Translations under genes and position numbers: made by a program
In this document: positions 3,657 to 23,074 of the stretch, one piece after another
Layout: each line of letters starts with the position of its first letter
Position numbering within the stretch: position 1 is the first letter of the stretch
IMG/VR virus record: IMGVR_UViG_3300029319_000487
Location: 1-23,182 of that record
Source: a virus
Length of the DNA stretch: 23,182 bases
Strand: one strand, 5' to 3'
Notes under the pieces: model-generated
Database searches by the model: none
What the model was told of the DNA's origin: nothing
Seen by the model: only the letters and a program-made list of their open reading frames with translations

Positions 3657-3671
3657 GGAGGTAAATCCTTA
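3654..3671 (+). promoter_or_regulatory. Strong Shine-Dalgarno inside a small hairpin
   Basis: AAGGAGGT at 3655-3662 is a near-perfect Shine-Dalgarno sequence for the ATG at 3671. It is also the left arm of a perfect six-base inverted repeat, TAAGGA (3654-3659) with TCCTTA (3666-3671), around a GGTAAA loop. The hairpin would cover both the ribosome binding site and the first base of the start codon, so initiation could depend on ribosomes arriving from the upstream gene. The stem is short and may not be stable. Confidence 0.4.
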
Positions 3672-4510
3672 TGGCCAATACTTGGAACGAGTCCGGCACA
3701 ACCTGGGGTACCAATCGTTGGGGAACTACTGATGCTTTTTCATTAGGTTGGGGAGCCAAAACTTGGAATCAAGGTGAGTGGGGCCAACTTAATGATCTTA
3801 CTCTTACACTTACAGGTGTTTCTTCTACTTCAAATGTAGGATCAGTTACAATTACATCAGAAATAAATACAGGATGGGGACAAGATGGTTGGGGTGTTGA
3901 AGACTGGGGTCGATCTGGATTAACACTTGTAATACCTACAGGTGTTCAAGCAACTACAGGTATTGGTTCTCTAGATCCTGCTGACGTAATGGGTTTAACT
4001 GGCGTATCTTCAACCTCATCAGTTGGATCACCAACAATTATTTCTGATTTTACTGGAACTCTTACAGGTGTTTCTGCAACATCAAGTGTCGGATCTTTAT
4101 CTCCAGCCGATGTTATGGGTCTAACTGGATTAGGTTCTACAACTTCTGTAGGTGCAATTGCACCGGCAGATGTCATGGGCTTAACTGGTTTATCAGCAAC
4201 AGTATCATTAGGCACACTTGAAATTTCTACAAATCCTATTGTAGATGTAACAGGTTTATCTATGACGTCTTCTGTAGGAGCAATATCACCAGCAGATGTT
4301 ATGGGATTGACAGGAGTTTCTGCAACTTCTTCAGCAGGTGCAATATCACCAGCAGATGTTATGGGATTGACAGGAGTTTCTGCAACTGCTAGTGTAGGAA
4401 CCGTAGCTCCTTTAGGGTATGAGTCAATAACTGGTAATCAAAGTGCAGGATATAGCTCAGTTACAGCTACACAAAGTGCAAATTATACAGCAGTCGATGC
4501 AGGGAATTAG
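3671..4510 (+). CDS. Trp-rich, tandem-repeat tail protein
   Basis: This 279-residue protein has a Trp/Gly-rich first quarter (WNESGTTWGTNRWG, GWGAKTWNQGEWG, later GWGQDGWGVEDWG). It is then made of about nine units of a TGVSATSSVGS-type beta repeat, five of them preceded by PADVMGL. The last 30 residues change to a YESITGNQSAGYSSVTATQS pattern. Repeats of this kind are typical of elongated beta structures in phage tail fibres and other virion appendages. It lies between a tail-family gene and a large fibre gene, so a fibre or tail-needle-like structural role is inferred. No enzymatic motif is seen. One pair of units is almost identical in DNA, pointing to recent repeat copying. Confidence 0.7.
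   Translation: MANTWNESGTTWGTNRWGTTDAFSLGWGAKTWNQGEWGQLNDLTLTLTGVSSTSNVGSVTITSEINTGWGQDGWGVEDWGRSGLTLVIPTGVQATTGIGSLDPADVMGLTGVSSTSSVGSPTIISDFTGTLTGVSATSSVGSLSPADVMGLTGLGSTTSVGAIAPADVMGLTGLSATVSLGTLEISTNPIVDVTGLSMTSSVGAISPADVMGLTGVSATSSAGAISPADVMGLTGVSATASVGTVAPLGYESITGNQSAGYSSVTATQSANYTAVDAGN
4281..4387 (+). repeat. 47-bp direct repeat with 60-bp period inside the tail repeat gene
   Basis: Bases 4281-4327 and 4341-4387 are identical, exactly 60 bases (20 codons) apart, and encode the repeated SPADVMGLTGVSAT segment. The other units of the same protein have diverged at DNA level while keeping the protein pattern, so this pair is probably a recent duplication or gene-conversion product. Confidence 0.85.
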
Positions 4511-4574: not shown

Positions 4575-6524
4575 ATGGCATCAACATATACGCCGCTAGG
4601 TATAGAACTTCAAGCAACTGGTGAAAATGCCGGTACATGGGGGACAAAAACTAATACTAATTTAAGTATAATCGAACAAATTTCAGGTGGTTTTACACAA
4701 CAAGCGGTTTCAGATTCTGGAGATACAGACCTTTCTGTATCTGATGGATCAACTGGTGCAACTCTTGCACACAGAATGATAGAATTTACAGGGACTCTTT
4801 CTGCTGGCAGGAACGTAACTATACCAATTGATGTCCAAACTTTTTATTTTTTAAAAAATTCTACAGGTGGTTCTCAGACTGTAACTTTTAAATATGTTTC
4901 AGGATCTGGTGATAGTGTAGCAGTAGCTAGTGGAGCAACTAAAATTGTATTCGCTTCTGCAAACGATGGAACTAATCCTGACATGATTGACATGGGTTTT
5001 GGTACAGGTGATGTAACACTTACAGGAACACAAACTTTAACAAATAAAACTTTAACTTCACCTAAAATTGGAACTTCAATTTTAGATACAAATGGTAATG
5101 AATTACTTAAACTGACTGCAACAGGCTCAGCAGTAAACGAATTAACATATGCAAATGCAGCTACAGGAAACAAACCAACACTTACTGCGTCTGGTGGAGA
5201 TACTAATATTGGTGTATCTATCCAACCAAAAGGTAGTGGACAAATTACTCTTGATGCTTTAACTTTTCCAGCAGCAGACGGTTCCGCAGATCAGGTGCTT
5301 AAAACCGACGGTAGTGGTAATTTAAGTTTCACTGATATGGGTGGTGGATCTGTAACTTGGCAAACAGGAAGTATTAAAACTACTGGATTTACTGCAACAG
5401 CAGGAGAAGGATATTTTTGTAATACTACGGGTGGTACTTTTACAGCAACCCTTCCTGCAAGTCCTAGTGCAGGTGATATTGTAGCTTTTAAAGATTATGC
5501 GGGTACTTTTGATACAAATAAATTAACAATTGGTAGAAATTCATCTAATATAGATGCAACAGCAGCTAATGTAGATTTAACTGATGAAGCTGAATCTATA
5601 ACATTTATTTATGTAGATGGAACTCAGGGATGGAAAGTAATTAACAATAGTAACCAAACTTTTGAACCAGCTTATGTAACAGCAACAGGTGGAACAGTTA
5701 CTTGTAGTGGAGATTACAAAATTCATACTTTTACAAGTCCGGGTACTTTTTGTGTAACTAACACAGGTAACGAATATGGTAATGATAAAGTTTCTTATTT
5801 AATTATAGCCGGTGGAGGTGGTGGTGGATCAACTAACTCTACTGACGATGGCGGTGGAGGAGGAGCAGGAGGTTATCGAGAAGGTAAAGATTCTTCTGAC
5901 CCTTATTCTGCAGGCCCTCCAGCTACTACTCATACCACATTATCAGCAACAGGAGCTTATGCTATAGCAGTTGGCGGCGGTGGTTCAGGTGGTCCTGGAA
6001 CTCCAGAGGTTCCTGGCACACAAGGTAGTGATTCATCATTTAATAGTATTGTTAGTGCCGGTGGTGGCGGAGCAAGAGGAAGTGGAAGCACTCCACCTCC
6101 TTCTGATGCTAACGGAGGATCCGGCGGAGGATCTGGAGGCGGTGGTGGTGTACCTGGAAAACCAGGTGGAACTGGAAACACTCCTGCTGTAAGTCCTTCT
6201 CAAGGAAATAATGGTGGTCAAGGAGCAACATCACCACCTGATGGTTCAGCCGGAGGCGGTGGTGGTATAGGTTCAGTAGGTGCTACAGCTGGTGGATCAA
6301 GTGCTAATGGCGGATCAGGAGTATCAAGTTCAATTAATGGAACACCAACAGCAAGAGCTGGAGGTGGCGGTGCAGCAACAGCATCTGGTCAAGACGGAGG
6401 TGGACCTAATGGAACTGCTGGAACAGCAAACACTGGCGGTGGTGGAGGTGGAAACCAAAACGGTAGTAGTGCAGGAGCTGGTGGATCAGGACTTGTAATT
6501 ATAAGGTATAAATACCAAAATTAA
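4575..6524 (+). CDS. Tail fibre with glycine-rich adhesin-like C-terminus
   Basis: This 649-residue protein starts with the phage-fibre opening STYTPLGIELQATGENAGTWG, followed by beta-rich shaft segments. Residues about 147-170 hold a GTQTLTNKTLTSPKI motif common in tail fibres, and about 230-255 a PAADGSADQVLKTDGSGNLSF motif. A domain at about 296-356 ends in VDGTQGWKVINN. From about 407 to 640 the chain is dominated by glycine runs (AGGGGGG, DDGGGGGAGG, SAGGGGARG) and closes with GGSGLVIIRYKYQN. This resembles the Gly_rich / polyglycine-II type domains found in phage adhesins such as S16 gp38 and in marine fibres. It is the best receptor-binding candidate in the window. The glycine region also holds Pro-Gly motifs (GGPGTPEVPGTQG, GVPGKPGGTG). 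The dioxygenase array begins two genes downstream. Confidence 0.8.
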   Translation: MASTYTPLGIELQATGENAGTWGTKTNTNLSIIEQISGGFTQQAVSDSGDTDLSVSDGSTGATLAHRMIEFTGTLSAGRNVTIPIDVQTFYFLKNSTGGSQTVTFKYVSGSGDSVAVASGATKIVFASANDGTNPDMIDMGFGTGDVTLTGTQTLTNKTLTSPKIGTSILDTNGNELLKLTATGSAVNELTYANAATGNKPTLTASGGDTNIGVSIQPKGSGQITLDALTFPAADGSADQVLKTDGSGNLSFTDMGGGSVTWQTGSIKTTGFTATAGEGYFCNTTGGTFTATLPASPSAGDIVAFKDYAGTFDTNKLTIGRNSSNIDATAANVDLTDEAESITFIYVDGTQGWKVINNSNQTFEPAYVTATGGTVTCSGDYKIHTFTSPGTFCVTNTGNEYGNDKVSYLIIAGGGGGGSTNSTDDGGGGGAGGYREGKDSSDPYSAGPPATTHTTLSATGAYAIAVGGGGSGGPGTPEVPGTQGSDSSFNSIVSAGGGGARGSGSTPPPSDANGGSGGGSGGGGGVPGKPGGTGNTPAVSPSQGNNGGQGATSPPDGSAGGGGGIGSVGATAGGSSANGGSGVSSSINGTPTARAGGGGAATASGQDGGGPNGTAGTANTGGGGGGNQNGSSAGAGGSGLVIIRYKYQN

Positions 6525-6544: not shown

Positions 6545-7012
6545 ATGGCACACTTTGCAAAAATAGGAATGAATGGAAAAGTTCTTCAAGTTTTAACACT
6601 TGCAGATAAGGATATGTTGGATGCTAATAATCAACCTGATGAAACAGTAGGTCAACAATATTTAGAACAACACAATAATTGGCCTGCACAAATGTGGGTT
6701 CAAACTTCATATAATACTTTTGAAAATGAACATAAGTTAGGTGGAACACCATTTAGAGGAAACTATGCTGGTGTAGGTTTTGAATGGGACGAAGATAACA
6801 ATATCTTTTGGCCTCCAAAAATTCACTCATCGTGGGTAAAAAATACATCTACTGCTAGATGGCAATCACCACTTGGTGATCCTCCTGCATTAACTGCAGA
6901 ACAACAATCACAGAATGATGCTGAGACACATTCTTGGCATTATGTTTGGAATGAATCAGCATATCAAGCTGACAATACAACTGGCTGGGACTTGACAAAC
7001 GCATTAGCATAA
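6545..7012 (+). CDS. Conserved marine-phage tail-region protein (MAHFAKI family)
   Basis: This 155-residue protein has GGAG upstream. Its opening, MAHFAKIGMNGKVLQVLTLA, and the later WVQTSYN, NYAGVGFEWDEDNNIFWPP and SWVKNTSTARWQSP segments match a small-protein family that I know from cyanophages and other marine phages. In those genomes it lies among structural or tail-fibre genes. It is rich in Trp and Asn, with no membrane segment or catalytic motif. The role is unknown; a fibre-associated or assembly protein is an inference from position. The C-terminal 30 residues (HSWHYVWNESAYQADNTTGW) look less conserved. Confidence 0.65.
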   Translation: MAHFAKIGMNGKVLQVLTLADKDMLDANNQPDETVGQQYLEQHNNWPAQMWVQTSYNTFENEHKLGGTPFRGNYAGVGFEWDEDNNIFWPPKIHSSWVKNTSTARWQSPLGDPPALTAEQQSQNDAETHSWHYVWNESAYQADNTTGWDLTNALA

Positions 7013-7030: not shown

Positions 7031-7534
7031 ATGCAAAAGAAAGTATTAAGTGAACAAGCGTTATATTACGGTGATGTGGAAATGCCTAAAGATTGGGACA
7101 TTGACCGAGATAAACTATCAGATGATATTTTACAATCAATACTTCAAAACAAAACTTTTCCGTTCTCAAAAACATTTGATAAGTTAAACACTTATATGAG
7201 AGATCATATAAAGGTAGACTATGGATTTACTTTAGTTAAAAAAGAAACGTGGGGTAATATCTACAAACCTAAAGAGACTACAATTCCATTATTAAATATA
7301 GACCCAATAGATTTACTAAACTCACCAGACTTTACATTTTTATATGGTGTAAAAGTTAAAGATTGTATAGTTCGAATACATTATGAAGACAACAGGCGTA
7401 AAGGTAGGTCTTGGGATATAGAACTTTTTAATAACAGATTTATAATGTTTCCATCAACTAATATGTATTACTTAACTAATAATCAAAAGGATAGTTTAAA
7501 TTTTGTACAAACTATAACGTATGAATATATCTGA
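7031..7534 (+). CDS. Dioxygenase-cassette protein, beta-barrel-like, no clear metal site
   Basis: I recall similar marine-phage proteins of this length but no assigned function. The 167 residues begin MQKKVLSEQALYYGDVEMP; a middle region has NIYKPKETTIPLL and a C-terminal part has RSWDIELFNNRFIMFPS followed by MYYLTNNQKDSLNFVQTITYE. The FIMFPS strand and the final hydrophobic strand look like the last strands of the double-stranded beta-helix fold used by the neighbouring dioxygenases. The distal metal His expected just after FPS is replaced by Tyr (about Y146), and no properly spaced HxD is seen. It overlaps the next gene by 14 bases, so it belongs to the same transcription unit. It could be an inactive relative or partner, or an unrelated cupin-like protein. 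Confidence 0.6.
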   Translation: MQKKVLSEQALYYGDVEMPKDWDIDRDKLSDDILQSILQNKTFPFSKTFDKLNTYMRDHIKVDYGFTLVKKETWGNIYKPKETTIPLLNIDPIDLLNSPDFTFLYGVKVKDCIVRIHYEDNRRKGRSWDIELFNNRFIMFPSTNMYYLTNNQKDSLNFVQTITYEYI

Positions 7535-8072
7535 TTATTTTTATTGGAACCAAGTGCTTTCAAAAGAAGAAATAAAAAAAATTAATTCTTTATTGAATAA
7601 ATACAAAAAAGAAAAAGAACCAGAACTTGCAAAAGCTAAAGATTCGAAAAAAACATCAACAGTTTACCCAATTAAAATTAAATTTTTAAAAAAAGAAATA
7701 AGTAAAATTCTTTACAATATTACCGTAGTCAATCAAGATCGTTACGGTTATGACCTATATAATTTCCATGATGATGATGAACTAAATTATAATATCTATA
7801 AGACAGGTGAAGAATATGAGTGGCACACAGATGGAGAAACTTATAAAGCTTCTGATATTAAGTTAACAGCTTTAGTGAATATATCAGAGAGTCCTTTTTC
7901 TGGGGGTAAGTTTAATTTATTAAGTTCAAAAAATGTGACCTTAGCCCCTGAATTAAGCAACCCGGGATCTATGATAGTTTTTAATTCCTTTATTTTACAT
8001 AAGGTAGATCCTATAATAAAAGGCACAAGAAAAACTTTAACTTTTTTTGCCAAAGGACCTGCGTTTAAATGA
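7521..8072 (+). CDS. 2-oxoglutarate/Fe(II) dioxygenase, prolyl-hydroxylase-like (array gene 1)
   Basis: This 183-residue protein carries a complete facial triad: H102-T-D104 in YEWHTDGE and distal H160 in FILHKVDP. R170 lies ten residues later (KGTRKTLTFF), where the family binds the 2-oxoglutarate carboxylate. A turn with SPFSGGKF and the strand GSMIVFNSF complete the beta-helix core of the prolyl 4-hydroxylase / PKHD superfamily. Such enzymes couple decarboxylation of 2-oxoglutarate to hydroxylation of a substrate; the substrate here is not visible. The N-terminal 45 residues are Lys-rich and helical. It overlaps the previous gene by 14 bases and the next by four (ATGA), which implies coupled translation. 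Confidence 0.85.
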   Translation: MNISDYFYWNQVLSKEEIKKINSLLNKYKKEKEPELAKAKDSKKTSTVYPIKIKFLKKEISKILYNITVVNQDRYGYDLYNFHDDDELNYNIYKTGEEYEWHTDGETYKASDIKLTALVNISESPFSGGKFNLLSSKNVTLAPELSNPGSMIVFNSFILHKVDPIIKGTRKTLTFFAKGPAFK

Positions 8073-8701
8073 ACTTAAATAATTATTATTGGTATTTTAA
8101 ATCAGCAATACCTCCAAAACTATGTGATGACATTATTAAACATGGTTTAGCAAAATCAGAAACTATGGCTACGATTGGTGGATATGGAAATAAAAAATTA
8201 TCAAAAAAAGAAACACAAGATTTAAAACTTAAAAGAAATTCAGACATAGTTTGGCTGAGTGATCCATGGATATACAGAGAATTACATCCATATATAAATC
8301 AAGCTAATAAATCAGCTGGTTGGAATTTTGATTGGGATTATTCTGAACAAATACAATTTACAAAATATAAGTTAAATCAATATTATGATTGGCATTGTGA
8401 TAGTTGGGAGAAACCTTATGATAGACCTAATACAATTGAACATGGGAAAATTAGAAAAATATCTATGACCTGTCAATTAACAGATGGTTCAGAATATAGA
8501 GGCGGTGAATTAGAGTTTGATTTTAGAAATTATGATCCTCCCATGAGAGATGAGTCAAAACATTTAAGGCAGGCAAAAGAAATATTATCAAAAGGTTCTA
8601 TTATTGTCTTTCCTTCTTTTTTATGGCATAGAGTTAAACCAGTGACGAAAGGAGTAAGGTATTCATTAGTTATGTGGAGCTTAGGATATCCGTTTAAATG
8701 A
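8069..8701 (+). CDS. PKHD-type 2-oxoglutarate/Fe(II) hydroxylase (array gene 2)
   Basis: This 210-residue protein is the most standard hydroxylase of the group. The metal triad is H109-C-D111 in YYDWHCDSW and H187 in SFLWHRVKPV; R197 follows in GVRYSLVMW for 2-oxoglutarate binding. It also has the ISMTCQLTDGSEYRGGELEF segment (core strand plus GGELEF turn) and the GSIIVFPSF strand of PKHD-type hydroxylases. Family members act on proteins or small molecules; the target here is unknown. Its N-terminus (NNYYWYFKSAIPPKLCDDIIKHG) looks like the helical lead-in typical of marine-phage versions. Start and stop both overlap neighbours through ATGA. Confidence 0.9.
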   Translation: MNLNNYYWYFKSAIPPKLCDDIIKHGLAKSETMATIGGYGNKKLSKKETQDLKLKRNSDIVWLSDPWIYRELHPYINQANKSAGWNFDWDYSEQIQFTKYKLNQYYDWHCDSWEKPYDRPNTIEHGKIRKISMTCQLTDGSEYRGGELEFDFRNYDPPMRDESKHLRQAKEILSKGSIIVFPSFLWHRVKPVTKGVRYSLVMWSLGYPFK

Positions 8702-9228
8702 AATTAAAAAATATAACACAAGATAAAGTAAAGGTAGATTATTTGTTAATAGAAGGGTTTTTAGATATTAATTCTGAATACTTTATTAAAGAAATAGAAA
8801 AAGGAATTATAAGAAATGATAATAATAATTTCAATACAAACGTACGAGGTTACATGACTTCTTATGAATATTTTAATAACGATAAAAATTTTTTAAAAAG
8901 TATTCTTCCTATATTTGATTATTTAGATTCTTTAGATAATATTAAACCATATAGACTTACAAGCTCTTGGGGGTTAAAAGAAAATTTTTCCCATTTTACA
9001 GAACCTCATGATCATTTACCTTGTTATTTATCTGGAGTTATTTATCTAAATAACCATAATCAAAATTTAATTTTTCCTGAACTTAATAAAAAAATTACAC
9101 CTAAATCAAATTCTTTTATTATTTTTTCTAGTTTTTTAATTCACAAAACAAATAGAAATATAACTGATACAGATAAATATGCCATATCATTTAATTTAAC
9201 AAAAGGACTGCAAACAAATGTACATTAA
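8698..9228 (+). CDS. 2OG-Fe(II) oxygenase of the HxH type (array gene 3)
   Basis: This 176-residue protein shows the pattern of the phage 2OG-FeII_Oxy_5-like family (PF13759): EPHDHLPCYLSGVIYL, with H104 and H106 as candidate metal ligands, then NLIFPEL. The strand SNSFIIFSSFLIHKTN supplies distal H149, and the family-type ending KYAISFNL follows. The residue expected to bind 2-oxoglutarate is Lys160 rather than Arg, a substitution also known in other dioxygenase groups. The gene is extremely A+T-rich; I count 10 G or C in 60 bases at 9061-9120. It shares ATGA with the gene before and overlaps the next by 11 bases. Confidence 0.75.
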   Translation: MKLKNITQDKVKVDYLLIEGFLDINSEYFIKEIEKGIIRNDNNNFNTNVRGYMTSYEYFNNDKNFLKSILPIFDYLDSLDNIKPYRLTSSWGLKENFSHFTEPHDHLPCYLSGVIYLNNHNQNLIFPELNKKITPKSNSFIIFSSFLIHKTNRNITDTDKYAISFNLTKGLQTNVH

Positions 9229-9850
9229 TAATTATTTTACCACAACTGTTTGGTCAGAACAAAAACTTGAGTTTTTAAAATCTTTAAATAAAGCATCTGA
9301 TAAATATATTAAAGAAGCAAGAAAAAAAAATAAAGAACATATAAAAAAATTTGGTGATTTTGGAATAAGCCATCATTCAACTCCTTTAGTAACTGATAAT
9401 GCTTTTTTAGATTTTAAAAAATATGTAGGTCAAAAGTCTTGGGAATATCTAGATCATCAAGGCTATGACATGTCGCACTATCAAGCTATGTTTAGTGAAC
9501 TATGGGTACAAGAATTTGCTAAACAAGGTGGTGGTCATCATTCAGCACATATACATTGGAATCAACATGTATCAGGTTTTTATTTTTTAAAATGTTCGGA
9601 TAAAACATCTTATCCAATTTTTCACGAACCTAGAACAGGTGCACGAGTTACTAAATTAAAAATGAAACCTAATATGAAAGGTATCTGGGGTGGTACAGAA
9701 GTAATACAAGTTAGACCTAAACCCGGGACATTACTTATATTTCCAGGATACTTGGAACACGAATATGCAGTGGATTTTGGAATTGAACCTTTTAGGTTTA
9801 TTCATTGGAATATACAAGCTGTACCAAAAGAAATGGCTAAAGATGTTTAA
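9218..9850 (+). CDS. 2OG-Fe(II) oxygenase of the HxH type (array gene 4)
   Basis: This 210-residue protein has the core GGGHHSAHIHWNQHVSGFYFL, where H111 and H113 are candidate metal ligands before the VSGFYFL strand. FHEPRTG follows, then the PKPGTLLIFPGYLEH strand with distal H181, and PFRFIHWNI with R193 as candidate 2-oxoglutarate ligand. This order is that of PF13759-like phage oxygenases. The N-terminal 50 residues form a Lys-rich helical region (EQKLEFLKSLNKASDKY and on). It shares the HxH architecture with array gene 3 but differs clearly in sequence. It overlaps the next gene by eight bases if that gene starts at 9843. Confidence 0.85.
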   Translation: MYINNYFTTTVWSEQKLEFLKSLNKASDKYIKEARKKNKEHIKKFGDFGISHHSTPLVTDNAFLDFKKYVGQKSWEYLDHQGYDMSHYQAMFSELWVQEFAKQGGGHHSAHIHWNQHVSGFYFLKCSDKTSYPIFHEPRTGARVTKLKMKPNMKGIWGGTEVIQVRPKPGTLLIFPGYLEHEYAVDFGIEPFRFIHWNIQAVPKEMAKDV

Positions 9851-10409
9851 AGAATATAAATTACCCAAAGAAAGTTTTATTGGAGGTTGGTTTATTCCTT
9901 TAGAAATCTGTGATGGATTAGTTTCTTATTATAATAAATTTAGTAAAAACACTACACCAGGTGTATTAAATGGAAATAAAGTAAAAAAAGATGTTAAGGA
10001 GTCTTTGGATTTACCAATAGGTATACATAACGTAGATGAAGAAATATTGGCTTATAGAATTAAATTACAAAACGTTTTAGAATTATATTTAAAAAAATAT
10101 CCCGAGGTAGATCAATATAATCACTTTAATGTTAAAAGATTTAATATTCAAAAATATAATAAAAATGGTGGATTTAAAAAATGGCACTGCGAAAGGGGAG
10201 AAAAATCTGACATGAGTAGGGTTTTAGTTTTTATGACTTATTTAAATGATATAGAAAACGGTGGAACTCATTTTAAATATCAAAAAATTACTACTCCATC
10301 GATAAAAGGTTTAACTTTAATATGGCCTACAGATTTTACTCATACTCATAAAGGTCAAATTGTAGACAAAGAAAAAATAATAACAACGGGCTGGTTTGAA
10401 TTTACATGA
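9843..10409 (+). CDS. Prolyl-4-hydroxylase-like 2OG-Fe(II) oxygenase, HxE type (array gene 5)
   Basis: I take ATG 9843 as the start, giving 188 residues beginning MFKEYKLPKESFIGGWF. The open frame extends back to an ATG at 9765, but that would overlap coding sequence of array gene 4 by 86 bases, and 9843 gives the short overlap seen throughout the cassette. The catalytic segment is FKKWHCERGE (H115, E117, so HxE rather than HxD), followed by MTYLNDIENGGTHF, a typical P4H-like strand and turn. The strand GLTLIWPTDFTHTHKG holds distal H167 or H169, and K178 in EKIITTGWFEF is the probable 2-oxoglutarate ligand. The IWP-THTHKG-TGWF ending is familiar from marine-phage P4H-like proteins. The next gene starts in the ATGA at 10406. 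Confidence 0.85.
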   Translation: MFKEYKLPKESFIGGWFIPLEICDGLVSYYNKFSKNTTPGVLNGNKVKKDVKESLDLPIGIHNVDEEILAYRIKLQNVLELYLKKYPEVDQYNHFNVKRFNIQKYNKNGGFKKWHCERGEKSDMSRVLVFMTYLNDIENGGTHFKYQKITTPSIKGLTLIWPTDFTHTHKGQIVDKEKIITTGWFEFT

Positions 10410-11029
10410 GTTTTAAAAAAAACAAATATATAGTTATTAGAAAAGCAATATCAAAAGATCTAGCAGCTTTTGTTGCAAACTATTTTTTAATGAAAAAACA
10501 GGTTTATGATACTTGTACACAAGCTAGATACATTTCTCCATTTGAAAGTTTATTAGGTTGTTATGAAGGTAAAGATGGACAGATCCCAGATACTTACTCT
10601 TGTTATTCAGACATAGCGATGGAAACTTTAATGTTAAAATGTCAACCACAAATGGAAAAAGTGACAGAATTAAAACTATATCCTGCATATACTTATGCAA
10701 GAGTTTACAAAAAAGGTGATGAATTAAAAAGACACAAAGATAGATTTAGTTGTGAAATATCTACCACTATGAATTTAGGTGGAAATGATTGGCCAATATA
10801 TCTAGAGCCGTCTGGAGAGAGAGGTAAAAAAGGTGTTAAAGTAAATTTAAAACCTGGAGATATGTTAGTATATAGAGGTTGTGAATTAGAGCATTGGAGA
10901 GAACCATTTAAAGGTAAAGAATGCATACAAGTTTTCCTGCATTATAACAATCGTAAGACCCCAGGAGCGAAGGATAATATGTTCGATAAGCGTCTACATT
11001 TAGGTCTTCCTAATTGGTTTAAACGATGA
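10406..11029 (+). CDS. 2OG-Fe(II) oxygenase family protein (array gene 6)
   Basis: This 207-residue protein has YTYARVYKKGDELKRHKDRF, giving H110-K-D112 as first metal motif, then the strand with SCEISTTMNLGG and WPIYLEP. LKPGDMLVYRGCELEHW supplies distal H163, and CIQVFLHYN is the closing strand. This layout is typical of a 2OG-Fe(II) oxygenase family common in marine phages. No Arg or Lys occupies the position that aligns by pattern with the 2-oxoglutarate ligand; Q175 is there, with K169 and K171 nearby, so co-substrate binding may differ. The first 90 residues form a helical domain with several Cys. It is the last gene before the hairpin at 11044-11083. Confidence 0.8.
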   Translation: MSFKKNKYIVIRKAISKDLAAFVANYFLMKKQVYDTCTQARYISPFESLLGCYEGKDGQIPDTYSCYSDIAMETLMLKCQPQMEKVTELKLYPAYTYARVYKKGDELKRHKDRFSCEISTTMNLGGNDWPIYLEPSGERGKKGVKVNLKPGDMLVYRGCELEHWREPFKGKECIQVFLHYNNRKTPGAKDNMFDKRLHLGLPNWFKR

Positions 11030-11096: not shown

Positions 11097-13316
11097 ATGT
11101 TACAAAAACTAGGATTTTTACCCGGATTTAATAAACAAGTTACGGCCACTGGAGCAGAATCTCAATGGACGGGAGGGCAAAATGTGCGTTTTAGATATGG
11201 TACTCCCGAAAAAATAGGTGGTTGGTCTCAATTAGGAGACAAAAAATTAACTGGCGCTGCAAGAGGATTGCATCACATGGTTAACAAAGAAGGTATTAAA
11301 TATGCCATTATAGGAACAAACAGGATTTTATACGCATATTCTGGAGGAGTATACTATGATATACACCCTTTAGTTAATCCATCAGGAACTGCTGTTACAA
11401 ATTTTTTTAGCACAACAAACGGACAACCTACTGTTACTTTAACTTTTCCTTCTGCGCACAATTTTAAAGTTGGGGACATTATACTATTTGGTGATGCGTC
11501 TACATTTTCTGCGATTACAGGCTCTAATTTTTCTTCTACAACTTTTTGTGATAAAAAATTTATGGTAAATTCTGTACCCACTACCACAACTTTAGAAATA
11601 AATGCTGGTGCTAATGAAACAGGATCAGGAGCAACTACCTCTGGAGGCATAACTTATTTTCAATACTATCATGTTGGACCAGCTGAACAGGTTGGAGTTT
11701 TTGGTTATGGTATATCACAATGGGGTGGTACAGTTACAAACCCACAAACAACAACTTTAAATGGAGCGTTAAACGCTGACTCTGCCGGAACTGGTGGAAC
11801 TGGAACTACAATTAATGTAGCCAGCACTACAGGATTTCCAAGCACAGGAACAAATTTTATACAAGTCGATAATGAGGAAATATCTTACACAGGTATTACA
11901 GCTACTAGCTTTACAGGAATAACTAGAAATGTTCGAGGCACAACTAACGCCTCTCACAGTAATGGTGCAACGGTTACTAATTTTAGTGCTTACTCAGCCT
12001 GGGGTCAAGCAGCATCGACAACGGATAAAGTTGCAGAACCAGGATTGTGGTCACTGGATAACTTAGGTTCAACACTAATCGCGTTGATACATAACGGAGA
12101 ATGTTTTCAATGGGACGCAGACGCATCAAATGCAACAGCCGTAAGAGCTACAATTATAACTGGTGCGCCGACCGCATCTAGAGATATGTTGGTATCTACA
12201 CCCGATCGTCACTTAGTATTTTTTGGAACAGAAACAACCATAGGTGATAAATCTTCACAAGATGATATGTTTATTAGATTTTCAAATCAAGAAGATATAA
12301 ATACCTATGCACCAACAGCGACCAATAGTGCTGGTACACAAAGACTGGCCGACGGATCACGGATCATAGGAGCTAAACTTGGTAGAAATGCAATTTACGT
12401 TTGGTCCGACACAGCCTTATTTACTATGCGTTTTGTTGGAGTCCCTAATATATTTGCGTTTGAACAAGTTGGTACTAACTGTGGATTGATTGGAAAAAAC
12501 GCGGCTGTTGAAGTTGACGGTGCTGCGTATTGGATGTCAGAAAATGGTTTTTTTAAATACACTGGTAAATTAGAATCTATGGATTGTTTAGTTGAAGATT
12601 ATGTTTATGATAATTTAAACACAACTTCTAATCAAATGATTTATGCTGGAGTAAATAATTTATTTGGTGAAGTCGTATGGTTTTACCCTGAAGCTAATTC
12701 TAATGTAAACACACAATGTGTTATATATAGTTATTTAGACTCAACTGTTAAAAGACCCATATGGTTTGTTAATGATAGTTCTCTTTTTATAAGAACTACT
12801 TGGCAAGACTCAGCTGTCTTTGGTTTACCTCATGCAACTCAATACGATGCTGGTGATGATTCATCATTTGATGTAACTGGAAACACGGACGGTATTTCAT
12901 ATTATTATGAACATGAAACTGGAGTTAATCAAGTAAGGTTAGGAACAACCACGGCTATTCCAGCTAACATTACTTCTGGAGACTTTGATATTACACAAAA
13001 AGTTGTTAGAGGAGCTGCAACTAATTTAGGAGATCTTAGAGGTGATGGAGAAAATATAATGAGAATTAGTAGAGTTATCCCTGATTTTATATCACAACAA
13101 GGCAATACGATCGTGCAATTGGATTTAAGAAATTATCCTAATAATGCTGCTGCCAGTTCACCTTTGGGTCCATTTACAATAACATCTAGCACAGAAAAAA
13201 TAGATACGCGTGCGAGAGCTAGAGCAATTGCATTAACTGTTTCTAATACAGCAGTAGATACTAATTGGAAATTAGGGACTTTTAGGTTAGATATACACGC
13301 TGGAGGAAGAAGATAA
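11097..13316 (+). CDS. Tail hub / nozzle protein, P22 gp10-like
   Basis: This 739-residue protein starts LQKLGFLPGFNKQVTATGAE, then a GQNVRFRYGTPEKIGGWSQL segment and GLHHMVNKEGIKYAIIGTN. That beginning is shared by many marine-phage proteins related to the P22 gp10 DNA-stabilising / nozzle group (PF11134). Residues about 100-175 and 218-296 are inserted beta modules. From about 315 the chain shows repeated blade-like segments (LWSLDNLGSTLIALIHNG, RHLVFFG, GRNAIYVWSDTALFTMRFVG, GAAYWMSENGFFKYTG), as in a beta-propeller hub. Such proteins close the tail below the adaptor ring. It follows the terminator-like hairpin, so it may head a separate transcript or rely on read-through. Its stop overlaps the next start (TAATG). 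Confidence 0.75.
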   Translation: MLQKLGFLPGFNKQVTATGAESQWTGGQNVRFRYGTPEKIGGWSQLGDKKLTGAARGLHHMVNKEGIKYAIIGTNRILYAYSGGVYYDIHPLVNPSGTAVTNFFSTTNGQPTVTLTFPSAHNFKVGDIILFGDASTFSAITGSNFSSTTFCDKKFMVNSVPTTTTLEINAGANETGSGATTSGGITYFQYYHVGPAEQVGVFGYGISQWGGTVTNPQTTTLNGALNADSAGTGGTGTTINVASTTGFPSTGTNFIQVDNEEISYTGITATSFTGITRNVRGTTNASHSNGATVTNFSAYSAWGQAASTTDKVAEPGLWSLDNLGSTLIALIHNGECFQWDADASNATAVRATIITGAPTASRDMLVSTPDRHLVFFGTETTIGDKSSQDDMFIRFSNQEDINTYAPTATNSAGTQRLADGSRIIGAKLGRNAIYVWSDTALFTMRFVGVPNIFAFEQVGTNCGLIGKNAAVEVDGAAYWMSENGFFKYTGKLESMDCLVEDYVYDNLNTTSNQMIYAGVNNLFGEVVWFYPEANSNVNTQCVIYSYLDSTVKRPIWFVNDSSLFIRTTWQDSAVFGLPHATQYDAGDDSSFDVTGNTDGISYYYEHETGVNQVRLGTTTAIPANITSGDFDITQKVVRGAATNLGDLRGDGENIMRISRVIPDFISQQGNTIVQLDLRNYPNNAAASSPLGPFTITSSTEKIDTRARARAIALTVSNTAVDTNWKLGTFRLDIHAGGRR

Positions 13317-22425: not shown

Positions 22426-22601
22426 TGGCTAGAAAATCGGCACTACAAAAAATAGAATCACACGAAAAGCTTTGCAGAATAATGCAAAAGCAAACGTTTG
22501 AACAAATAAAAGAAATGCAAGATCGAATTAAAAGATTAGAGTATTGGATTGTCGGTGGTATGGGAGCCGTATTAATAGTTTTATTAACAGATGTAGCATG
22601 A
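22425..22601 (+). CDS. Small membrane protein, XhlA-like holin or lysis accessory
   Basis: This 58-residue protein starts in TAATG at the end of the giant gene and ends in ATGA shared with the endolysin. Residues 1-40 form a charged amphipathic helix with heptad character (KIESHEKLCRIMQKQ, then EQIKEMQDRIKRLEYW). Residues about 41-54 are hydrophobic (WIVGGMGAVLIVLL), a single membrane segment near the C-terminus. That layout is the one seen in XhlA-type haemolysin/holin-associated proteins (PF10779). Coupling to an endolysin gene supports a lysis role. Whether it alone makes the membrane lesion cannot be decided here. Confidence 0.7.
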   Translation: MARKSALQKIESHEKLCRIMQKQTFEQIKEMQDRIKRLEYWIVGGMGAVLIVLLTDVA

Positions 22602-23074
22602 ATCTTTCACGAAATTTTACACTTTCAGAATTAACTAAATCGGATACTGCGATTCGTAAGGGCATTAATAATAATCCTAATGCAGAACAAATAGAAAAAT
22701 TAAAAGCACTTTGTGAAAATATCCTACAACCAGTACGTGATCACTTCGGTAGAGTAAAAGTAACTAGCGGATTTCGTAGCGTAGAACTATGCACGGCTAT
22801 TGGTAGCTCTGCAAATTCGCAGCACGCCAAGGCCGAGGCCGCAGACTTCGAAGTAATAGGCACAGACAACGCTGAATTATTTGATTGGATCAAAGATAAT
22901 CTTCAACCAGACCAGCTCATACTCGAGTTCTATACTCCAGGCGAACCTAATAGCGGATGGATTCACTGCAGCTGGGTAGAAGGAACACCGAGAGCATCAT
23001 ACTTACATGCGTATAAATCTGAAGGTAAAACAAAATATAAACCAATATTAGGAAGCGCTAAGGAATTAGTATAA
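22598..23074 (+). CDS. Peptidase M15 family endolysin
   Basis: This 158-residue protein starts at ATG 22598 within the ATGA shared with the small membrane gene. An upstream ATG at 22544 in the same frame is less likely because it would overlap that gene by 58 bases. It begins NLSRNFTLSELTKSDTAIRK, then PVRDHFGRVKVTSGFRS and the zinc site SQHAKAEAADFE (H76, D83). H123 in GWIHCSW is the third ligand, and E110 lies in DQLILEF. This is the full pattern of Peptidase_M15_3 (PF08291), which cuts peptide cross-bridges of cell-wall peptidoglycan. The usual Gly between His and Asp (SxHxxGxAxD) is Glu here. No signal peptide is seen, so a holin-type partner is expected. Confidence 0.88.
   Translation: MNLSRNFTLSELTKSDTAIRKGINNNPNAEQIEKLKALCENILQPVRDHFGRVKVTSGFRSVELCTAIGSSANSQHAKAEAADFEVIGTDNAELFDWIKDNLQPDQLILEFYTPGEPNSGWIHCSWVEGTPRASYLHAYKSEGKTKYKPILGSAKELV

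Follow-up and report, generated by a model that had tools for sequence, protein, structure and literature searches.

An array of 2-oxoglutarate oxygenase genes behind a glycine-rich fibre gene in an HTVC023P-type pelagiphage

Why would a marine phage encode six 2-oxoglutarate (2OG)/Fe(II) oxygenases in a row among its tail genes? Such an array occupies positions 7521-11029 of the 23,182-nucleotide stretch analysed here (the window), which belongs to IMG/VR virus record IMGVR_UViG_3300029319_000487 of 24,567 bases. Judged by its sequence, the window is part of an HTVC023P-type pelagiphage genome and covers a segment of structural genes, and the host of this marine phage is probably SAR11 bacteria. 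An earlier note on this DNA had described the six genes together with a seventh, related-looking gene upstream, and had proposed that they form a dedicated modification system. We suggest, at a probability of roughly 0.45, that the locus holds a cassette of fibre-linked genes for oxidative modification, which would tailor the receptor-binding fibre of the phage. The seven genes are designated W1 to W7 in their order, and the small gene between W1 and the fibre gene is designated W0 (Table 1).

Six coupled oxygenase genes

The layout given in the earlier note proved accurate, in that W2 to W7 are consecutive genes overlapping by 4, 4, 11, 8 and 4 bases, and W1 (7031-7534) is coupled to W2 through a 14-base overlap. 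The start of W6 is the ATG at 9843; a longer open reading frame from 9765, which overlaps W5 by 86 bases and carries an extra N-terminus with no counterpart in homologues, was rejected. Each of the six proteins has a metal motif (HTD in W2, HCD in W3, HDH in W4, HIH in W5, HCE in W6 and HKD in W7) and a distal histidine. A loose form of this motif arises in 9-71% of shuffles of the same proteins, and the motif scan was dropped as proof of oxygenase identity because such chance rates are too high. The assignment of all six to the 2OG/Fe(II) oxygenases, which our analysis upholds, is solid because it draws on profiles and models and not on the motif alone.

The curated Pfam cut-off is passed by W2, W3 and W6 for PF13640 and by W5 for PF13759, and W4 scores 26.4 bits against PF13759, 0.6 bit short of the cut-off of 27, with a strong PHROG oxygenase match. 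By these profiles W2 to W6 are double-stranded beta-helix oxygenases. W3 matches PiuC-type entries of the PDB (E 0.003), and the residues listed for it in Table 1 are at least 97% conserved among 183 homologues, as is the three-histidine site of W5 among 169. The HxH form of the motif in W4 and W5 is normal for PF13759, and the HIH of W5 aligns with that of 3bvc and 2rg4; the HxH...H site of both proteins is common to these two structural-genomics entries of unknown function. A candidate basic residue for 2OG binding is conserved in W3 (R197) and W5 (R193), and W2 has an arginine by sequence; W7 has a conserved Q175/H179 where the arginine or lysine would be expected.

W7 has no Pfam match. 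Its AlphaFold2 model, built from a 35-sequence alignment with a predicted local distance difference test (pLDDT) score of 94.5, matches in Foldseek the Pseudomonas prolyl 4-hydroxylase (P4H; 4iw3/4j25), SnoN and EctD, the top 50 matches all being 2OG oxygenases, and each of H110, D112 and H163 is retained in at least 97% of 190 homologues. On this model W7 is a double-stranded beta-helix 2OG oxygenase, its similarity to prolyl 4-hydroxylase being one of fold only. Across W2 to W7, then, profiles, the W7 model and metal motifs fit oxygenases, rather than several of the six lacking the fold or the metal site.

The PHROG family of W7 is named ferrochelatase, and W7 homologues, which occur in 156 phage records, are so annotated in many phages. 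Ferrochelatase was not matched by W7 in Pfam or PDB sequence searches, nor does its model appear among the Pfam matches of seven members of the W7 family. The label is thus a misnomer, given the 2OG oxygenases matched by the model and the conserved metal triad. A second family, found among the additional genes of related loci and annotated as 'DNA endonuclease V', is likewise an oxygenase, because H99, D101, H143 and R154 are invariant in its eight members and none has a Pfam match to the T4-type (DenV) endonuclease V domain; four of the eight match PF13640. The cyanophage and pelagiphage members tested of 'ferrochelatase' (phrog_2954, T4-GC 615) and 'DNA endonuclease V' (phrog_274, T4-GC 100) are 2OG oxygenases.

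Tandem duplication of a single gene as the origin of the array is ruled out by alignments within the window. The only clear one joins W2 and W3 (29% identity over 127 amino acids); W4 and W5 have a Pfam family in common and nothing more, and no full-length paralogue of W6 or W7 aligned within the window. W2 is present in seven other contigs, each time ahead of W3, W4 has three close relatives (73-95% identity), and homologues of W6 occur in HTVC008M, S-SM1 and S-RSM4.

A constant core that includes a metal-less relative

Gene order was compared across 148 loci on viral contigs carrying W7 or W1, 80 more-distant W7 relatives, and relatives of W2 and W4. In all 81 records that hold W1, W3, W5 and W7, these four genes occur in that order, and of the 311 junctions between module genes, 271 are overlaps. 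W0 lies directly ahead of W1 in 76 of the 78 records not cut at that point, and its homologues are also found on the flanks of the arrays in cyanophages S-SM1 and S-RSM4. The six genes that the earlier note treated as the unit are therefore not the constant part, which consists of W1 together with W3, W5 and W7, with W2, W4 and W6 optional. Its broader view of a dedicated system, as opposed to scattered metabolic genes, is borne out: the unit is fixed in position, as the core order, the overlaps and the place behind a receptor-binding fibre gene show, and placement in related genomes is not random.

Among these 81 records, extra genes occupy the W1/W3 junction in 19, the W3/W5 junction in 12 and the W5/W7 junction in 29, and all three are filled only in the window and in contig L239. 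The 60 inserts, which include W2, W4 and W6 of the window itself, yield 30 matches to PF13640 and 20 to PF13759 (sets that may overlap), as well as two tryptophan halogenases and two carbamoyltransferases, whereas 60 control genes taken from these contigs gave a single match to each of the two oxygenase families. Tryptophan halogenase-like or carbamoyltransferase genes lie in or beside the array at L040:1629-3113, L139:3097-4581, L047:4695-6353 and L059:7932-9284, and recur in P-RSM4, S-CAM8, syn9 and HTVC008M.

The first gene of the core, W1, has no profile match, and a PDB sequence search with a W1 profile found no oxygenase; its relation to oxygenases emerges only from fold comparison and from distant homologues. 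The best matches of its model (pLDDT 88.8) are the PF13759-type structures 3bvc and 2rg4, followed by PHD2 and TlxI. In a 32-member alignment, W1 has L87-L-N89 and Y146 where distant relatives in contigs L178 and L210 keep HHH and the distal histidine, and among 129 W1 homologues position 87 is leucine in 122 and position 146 tyrosine in 126. Because the triad is replaced and the model matches these four structures, W1 represents an oxygenase fold without the metal site. The kinship suspected in the earlier note thus holds at the level of the fold, and with the metal site lost W1 cannot be an ordinary active oxygenase. Nor is the gene decaying, since its median ratio of nonsynonymous to synonymous substitution rates (dN/dS), 0.146, is the lowest of the four core genes and below those of W3, W5 and W7 (0.22-0.24). 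Among annotated phage records, W1 of the HTVC023P type was found only in HTVC023P and 023Pt_psg01. In the two contigs with distant relatives (L178:7256-8701 and L210:4042-5367), a glycine-rich fibre gene sits between the W1 homologue, its metal site intact, and W3.

A comparable arrangement is known from the fungal TlxI-TlxJ pair (PDB 7vbq/7vbr), in which TlxI is a non-catalytic 2OG oxygenase required as a heterodimer with the active TlxJ (PMC12141560). Both cases have a non-catalytic subunit of oxygenase fold encoded next to active relatives, whereas TlxI lacks the 2OG-binding arginine and W1 the metal ligands, and the substrates are unrelated. By analogy with TlxI, we infer that W1 may be a non-catalytic adapter or heterodimer partner.

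Linkage to a glycine-rich fibre gene

The gene directly upstream of the module, past W0, contains a stretch of at least 30% glycine in 87 of 91 loci. In a second count, a glycine-rich fibre gene lay immediately upstream at 61 of 68 HTVC023P-type loci versus 5 of 204 genes further away, and a glycine-rich upstream gene was present at 44 of 56 other phage loci versus 9 of 202 genes further away, figures whose p-values overstate significance because the contigs are related to one another and the background omits the three genes nearest upstream. The myophages HTVC008M, S-SM1, Mosig and S-RSM4 (141-194 kb) carry one copy each of the Gly_rich_2 domain PF21722, and in all four it adjoins the array. 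In P-RSM4 and S-CAM8, two of eight further cyanophages, the arrangement recurs with an intervening carbamoyltransferase, syn9 has a glycine-rich gene within about 6 kb of its oxygenases, beyond a halogenase, and S-RIM32 and Syn30 are weak cases. A sequence search of the PDB with W0 and the glycine-rich domain, looking for a fibre-chaperone pair like gp24/gp25 of Pam3, gave nothing significant.

Homologous arrays adjoin fibre genes in the podovirus HTVC033P, the pelagimyophages HTVC008M and Mosig, and the cyanomyophages S-SM1 and S-RSM4. The T4-like cyanophages (S-SM1, S-RSM4, P-RSM4, S-CAM8 and syn9) and the two pelagimyophages resemble the window in having overlapping homologues of W3, W6, W7 and the 'endonuclease V' type beside fibres, several with a carbamoyltransferase or tryptophan halogenase nearby; they differ in their variable gene order, and W1 of the HTVC023P type was not found in them. 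Some of these arrays exceed that of the window in length, among them the run in S-SM1, with W6, W3, two 'endonucleases', further PF13640 and PF13759 genes and two copies of W7; a run of eight genes is present in contig L195. A count of six genes is accordingly not exceptional, since large arrays are already present in public cyanophage and pelagiphage genomes. A conserved cysteine-rich protein with weak matches to 4Fe-4S profiles is encoded within the arrays of S-SM1 and S-RSM4 (L154:11317-12018 and L157:7941-8642 among the sampled loci).

At the DNA level the window resembles two phages, Pelagibacter phage HTVC023P and 023Pt_psg01, the latter by its name one of the HTVC023P-type genomes in PMC9599517; the matching stretch is the oxygenase region itself. 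The segment runs from virion and tail proteins through the glycine-rich fibre, W0 and the oxygenase genes to a further virion structural protein, for which the earlier note spoke of a nozzle gene and PHROGs gives no label more specific than virion structural protein. A repeat protein with units like 'MGLTGVSATSSVGAISPADV' is encoded at 3671-4510, and HTVC023P and 023Pt_psg01 have repeat proteins of a comparable kind downstream of the module. At 22544-23074 there is a putative lysis gene of the peptidase M15 type, with DNA similarity to HTVC027P.

Table 1. Genes of the module and its flanks in the window
Feature	Position	Strand	Basis
Glycine-rich tail-fibre/adhesin gene	4575..6524	+	C-terminal PF21722 Gly_rich_2, residues 400-646, Pfam 1.4e-14; PHROG tail-fibre matches
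W0, small conserved protein between fibre and module	6545..7012	+	phrog_7759, unknown function
W1, pseudo-oxygenase, first gene of the module	7031..7534	+	Jelly-roll fold; L87, N89, Y146 instead of metal triad
W2, accessory 2OG-Fe(II) oxygenase, W1/W3 insert	7521..8072	+	PF13640 2.3e-9; HxD..H..R
W3, core 2OG-Fe(II) oxygenase, PKHD/P4H-like	8069..8701	+	PF13640 4.7e-14; H109, D111, H187, R197
W4, accessory oxygenase, W3/W5 insert	8698..9228	+	PF13759 9.5e-6; phrog_81 7e-20; HxH..H
W5, core oxygenase, three-histidine site	9218..9850	+	PF13759 3.9e-13; H111, H113, H181
W6, accessory oxygenase, W5/W7 insert	9843..10409	+	PF13640 3e-8; HxE..H
W7, core oxygenase	10406..11029	+	AlphaFold2 model, Foldseek; H110, D112, H163
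Virion structural protein downstream of module	11097..13316	+	phrog_3287

Candidate functions of the module

Oxygenase arrays of this kind and their superfamily label are already known. Cyanophages carry many oxygenases (PMC3037559), and Wittmers et al. 2022 (PMC9599517) report eight non-orthologous 2OG-Fe(II) oxygenases in HTVC023P-type phages, with a 'ferrochelatase' neighbour, under the term 'partner-AMGs' (AMG, auxiliary metabolic gene). The phage group is the same, and HTVC023P itself has homologues of W3, W5 and W7. In that paper, however, the oxygenases are frequently nearby but 'not adjacent' and ferrochelatase is an iron partner, whereas here the genes overlap and the 'ferrochelatase' is an oxygenase; the fixed core order, the pseudo-oxygenase and the fibre linkage are not described in the sections consulted. 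A study of metaviromic islands in marine phages (PMC3909814) likewise groups Fe(II)-dependent oxygenases with fibre and other host-recognition genes in variable islands, but only tabulates them, with neither mechanism nor gene order in the section consulted. The open-access literature yielded no earlier account of the fixed core, of the pseudo-oxygenase, of the linkage to a glycine-rich fibre or of the mislabelling, and no precedent for hydroxylated phage fibres or fibre-modifying oxygenases.

The reading of the locus as a fibre-modifying cassette builds on the six double-stranded beta-helix oxygenases and their metal-less relative, the fixed order, the oxygenase-rich inserts and the fibre linkage. 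It also builds on W1, on which purifying selection acts more strongly than on any other core gene and whose fold is TlxI-like. Two published observations point the same way: the receptor-binding tip of the Pam3 fibre gp24 is formed by a glycine-rich domain of comparable style (PMC9608196), and oxygenases are listed among host-recognition genes of metaviromic islands (PMC3909814). Under the proposed mechanism, fibre and enzymes would be produced together late in infection, the enzymes being a constant set encoded directly downstream of the fibre: W1 and the oxygenases W3, W5 and W7, which are predicted to be active. The oxygenases would act on side chains in the newly made fibre tip ahead of assembly, by hydroxylation or another oxidation, and W1 would assist a partner in binding or folding. 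Accessory enzymes at the junctions (W2, W4 and W6 here, a halogenase or carbamoyltransferase elsewhere) would alter the outcome, and their exchange would vary the chemical surface of the tip and hence receptor recognition. It is possible, and we put it forward tentatively, that the system diversifies receptor-binding proteins, with a fixed core organised by a pseudoenzyme adapter and exchangeable oxygenases, halogenases and carbamoyltransferases decorating a glycine-rich adhesin.

Several observations weigh against a fibre substrate. The Gly_rich_2 gene is missing from three of eight further cyanophages with W7 homologues (S-PM2, S-SM2 and S-T4), in which the oxygenases adjoin other tail genes, and the W7 homologue of Syn30 is not near any fibre. 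Given these exceptions, linkage to fibres is general, and linkage to glycine-rich fibres is common but not universal. Myophages also have oxygenases elsewhere in their genomes. A scan of the glycine-rich fibre domains for a target motif (Pro-Gly, Asn and others) found several dipeptides enriched and none specific, and fibre glycine content did not differ with the presence of inserts, nearly all fibres being glycine-rich. Glycine-rich adhesins of other phages, S16 gp38 for one, are not known to depend on oxygenases. The neighbourhood of a gene cannot by itself reveal the substrate; on balance a virion fibre is a more probable substrate than the host surface or nucleic acid.

The enzymes could instead act on the infected cell. 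The oxygenases, with the halogenase, the carbamoyltransferase and nearby glycosyltransferases, would then oxidise surface proteins or glycans such as lipopolysaccharide, for instance to block superinfection or to release progeny, and adjacency to the fibre would reflect a variable host-interaction island. PhyH/PKHD-type enzymes and carbamoyltransferases do tailor glycans and small molecules too, and a glycosyltransferase lies downstream in HTVC023P. Islands of this kind are described for this region of marine phages (PMC3909814). We nonetheless judge this explanation unlikely, because the genes are tightly coupled with fibre and structural genes rather than with any glycan pathway, and because the glycine-rich fibre linkage recurs across podoviruses and myoviruses.

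Also improbable is an opportunistic hotspot, in which post-fibre junctions gather short mobile oxygenase genes of unrelated function, such as repair or metabolism, and gene exchange leaves the array behind as a by-product. Differences in inserts between contigs, the oxygenases scattered elsewhere in myophage genomes, and the account of oxygenases as frequent AMGs, single entities included, in PMC9599517 would all fit it; the invariant four-gene order, the overlaps and purifying selection of the core, and inserts that are overwhelmingly of one chemistry do not. A metabolic role, whether drawing 2OG down to succinate or managing iron, has been proposed in terms of cyanophage 2OG/NtcA signalling (PMC3037559) and of a 'ferrochelatase' partnership in pelagiphages (PMC9599517); it is very unlikely here, as the 'ferrochelatase' is itself an oxygenase, a conserved member without a metal site, W1, is hard to square with bulk 2OG turnover, and the module sits by the fibre, away from metabolic or replication genes. 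Least probable of all is AlkB/TET-like modification or repair of nucleic acid, to which a weak resemblance between the W7 family profile and Tet-like dioxygenases (E 0.023), the cyanophage oxygenases adjoining uvsW/uvsY and a suggested repair role (PMC2984593) would point, since the array lies amid virion genes, the uvsW-linked oxygenases are different loci, and no DNA-binding or base-modification partner was identified within the window.

The analysis puts right two labels that have been copied widely and have fed hypotheses of iron metabolism and DNA repair, namely ferrochelatase and DNA endonuclease V, and W1 brings a conserved pseudoenzyme to notice. Few unexplained genes are as common in marine phages as those for 2OG oxygenases, and the link to the fibre turns the open 'auxiliary metabolic gene' question into one that is directly testable on the fibre. 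Should the diversification of receptor-binding proteins outlined above prove true, host recognition in these phages would vary through post-translational chemistry and not through sequence alone.

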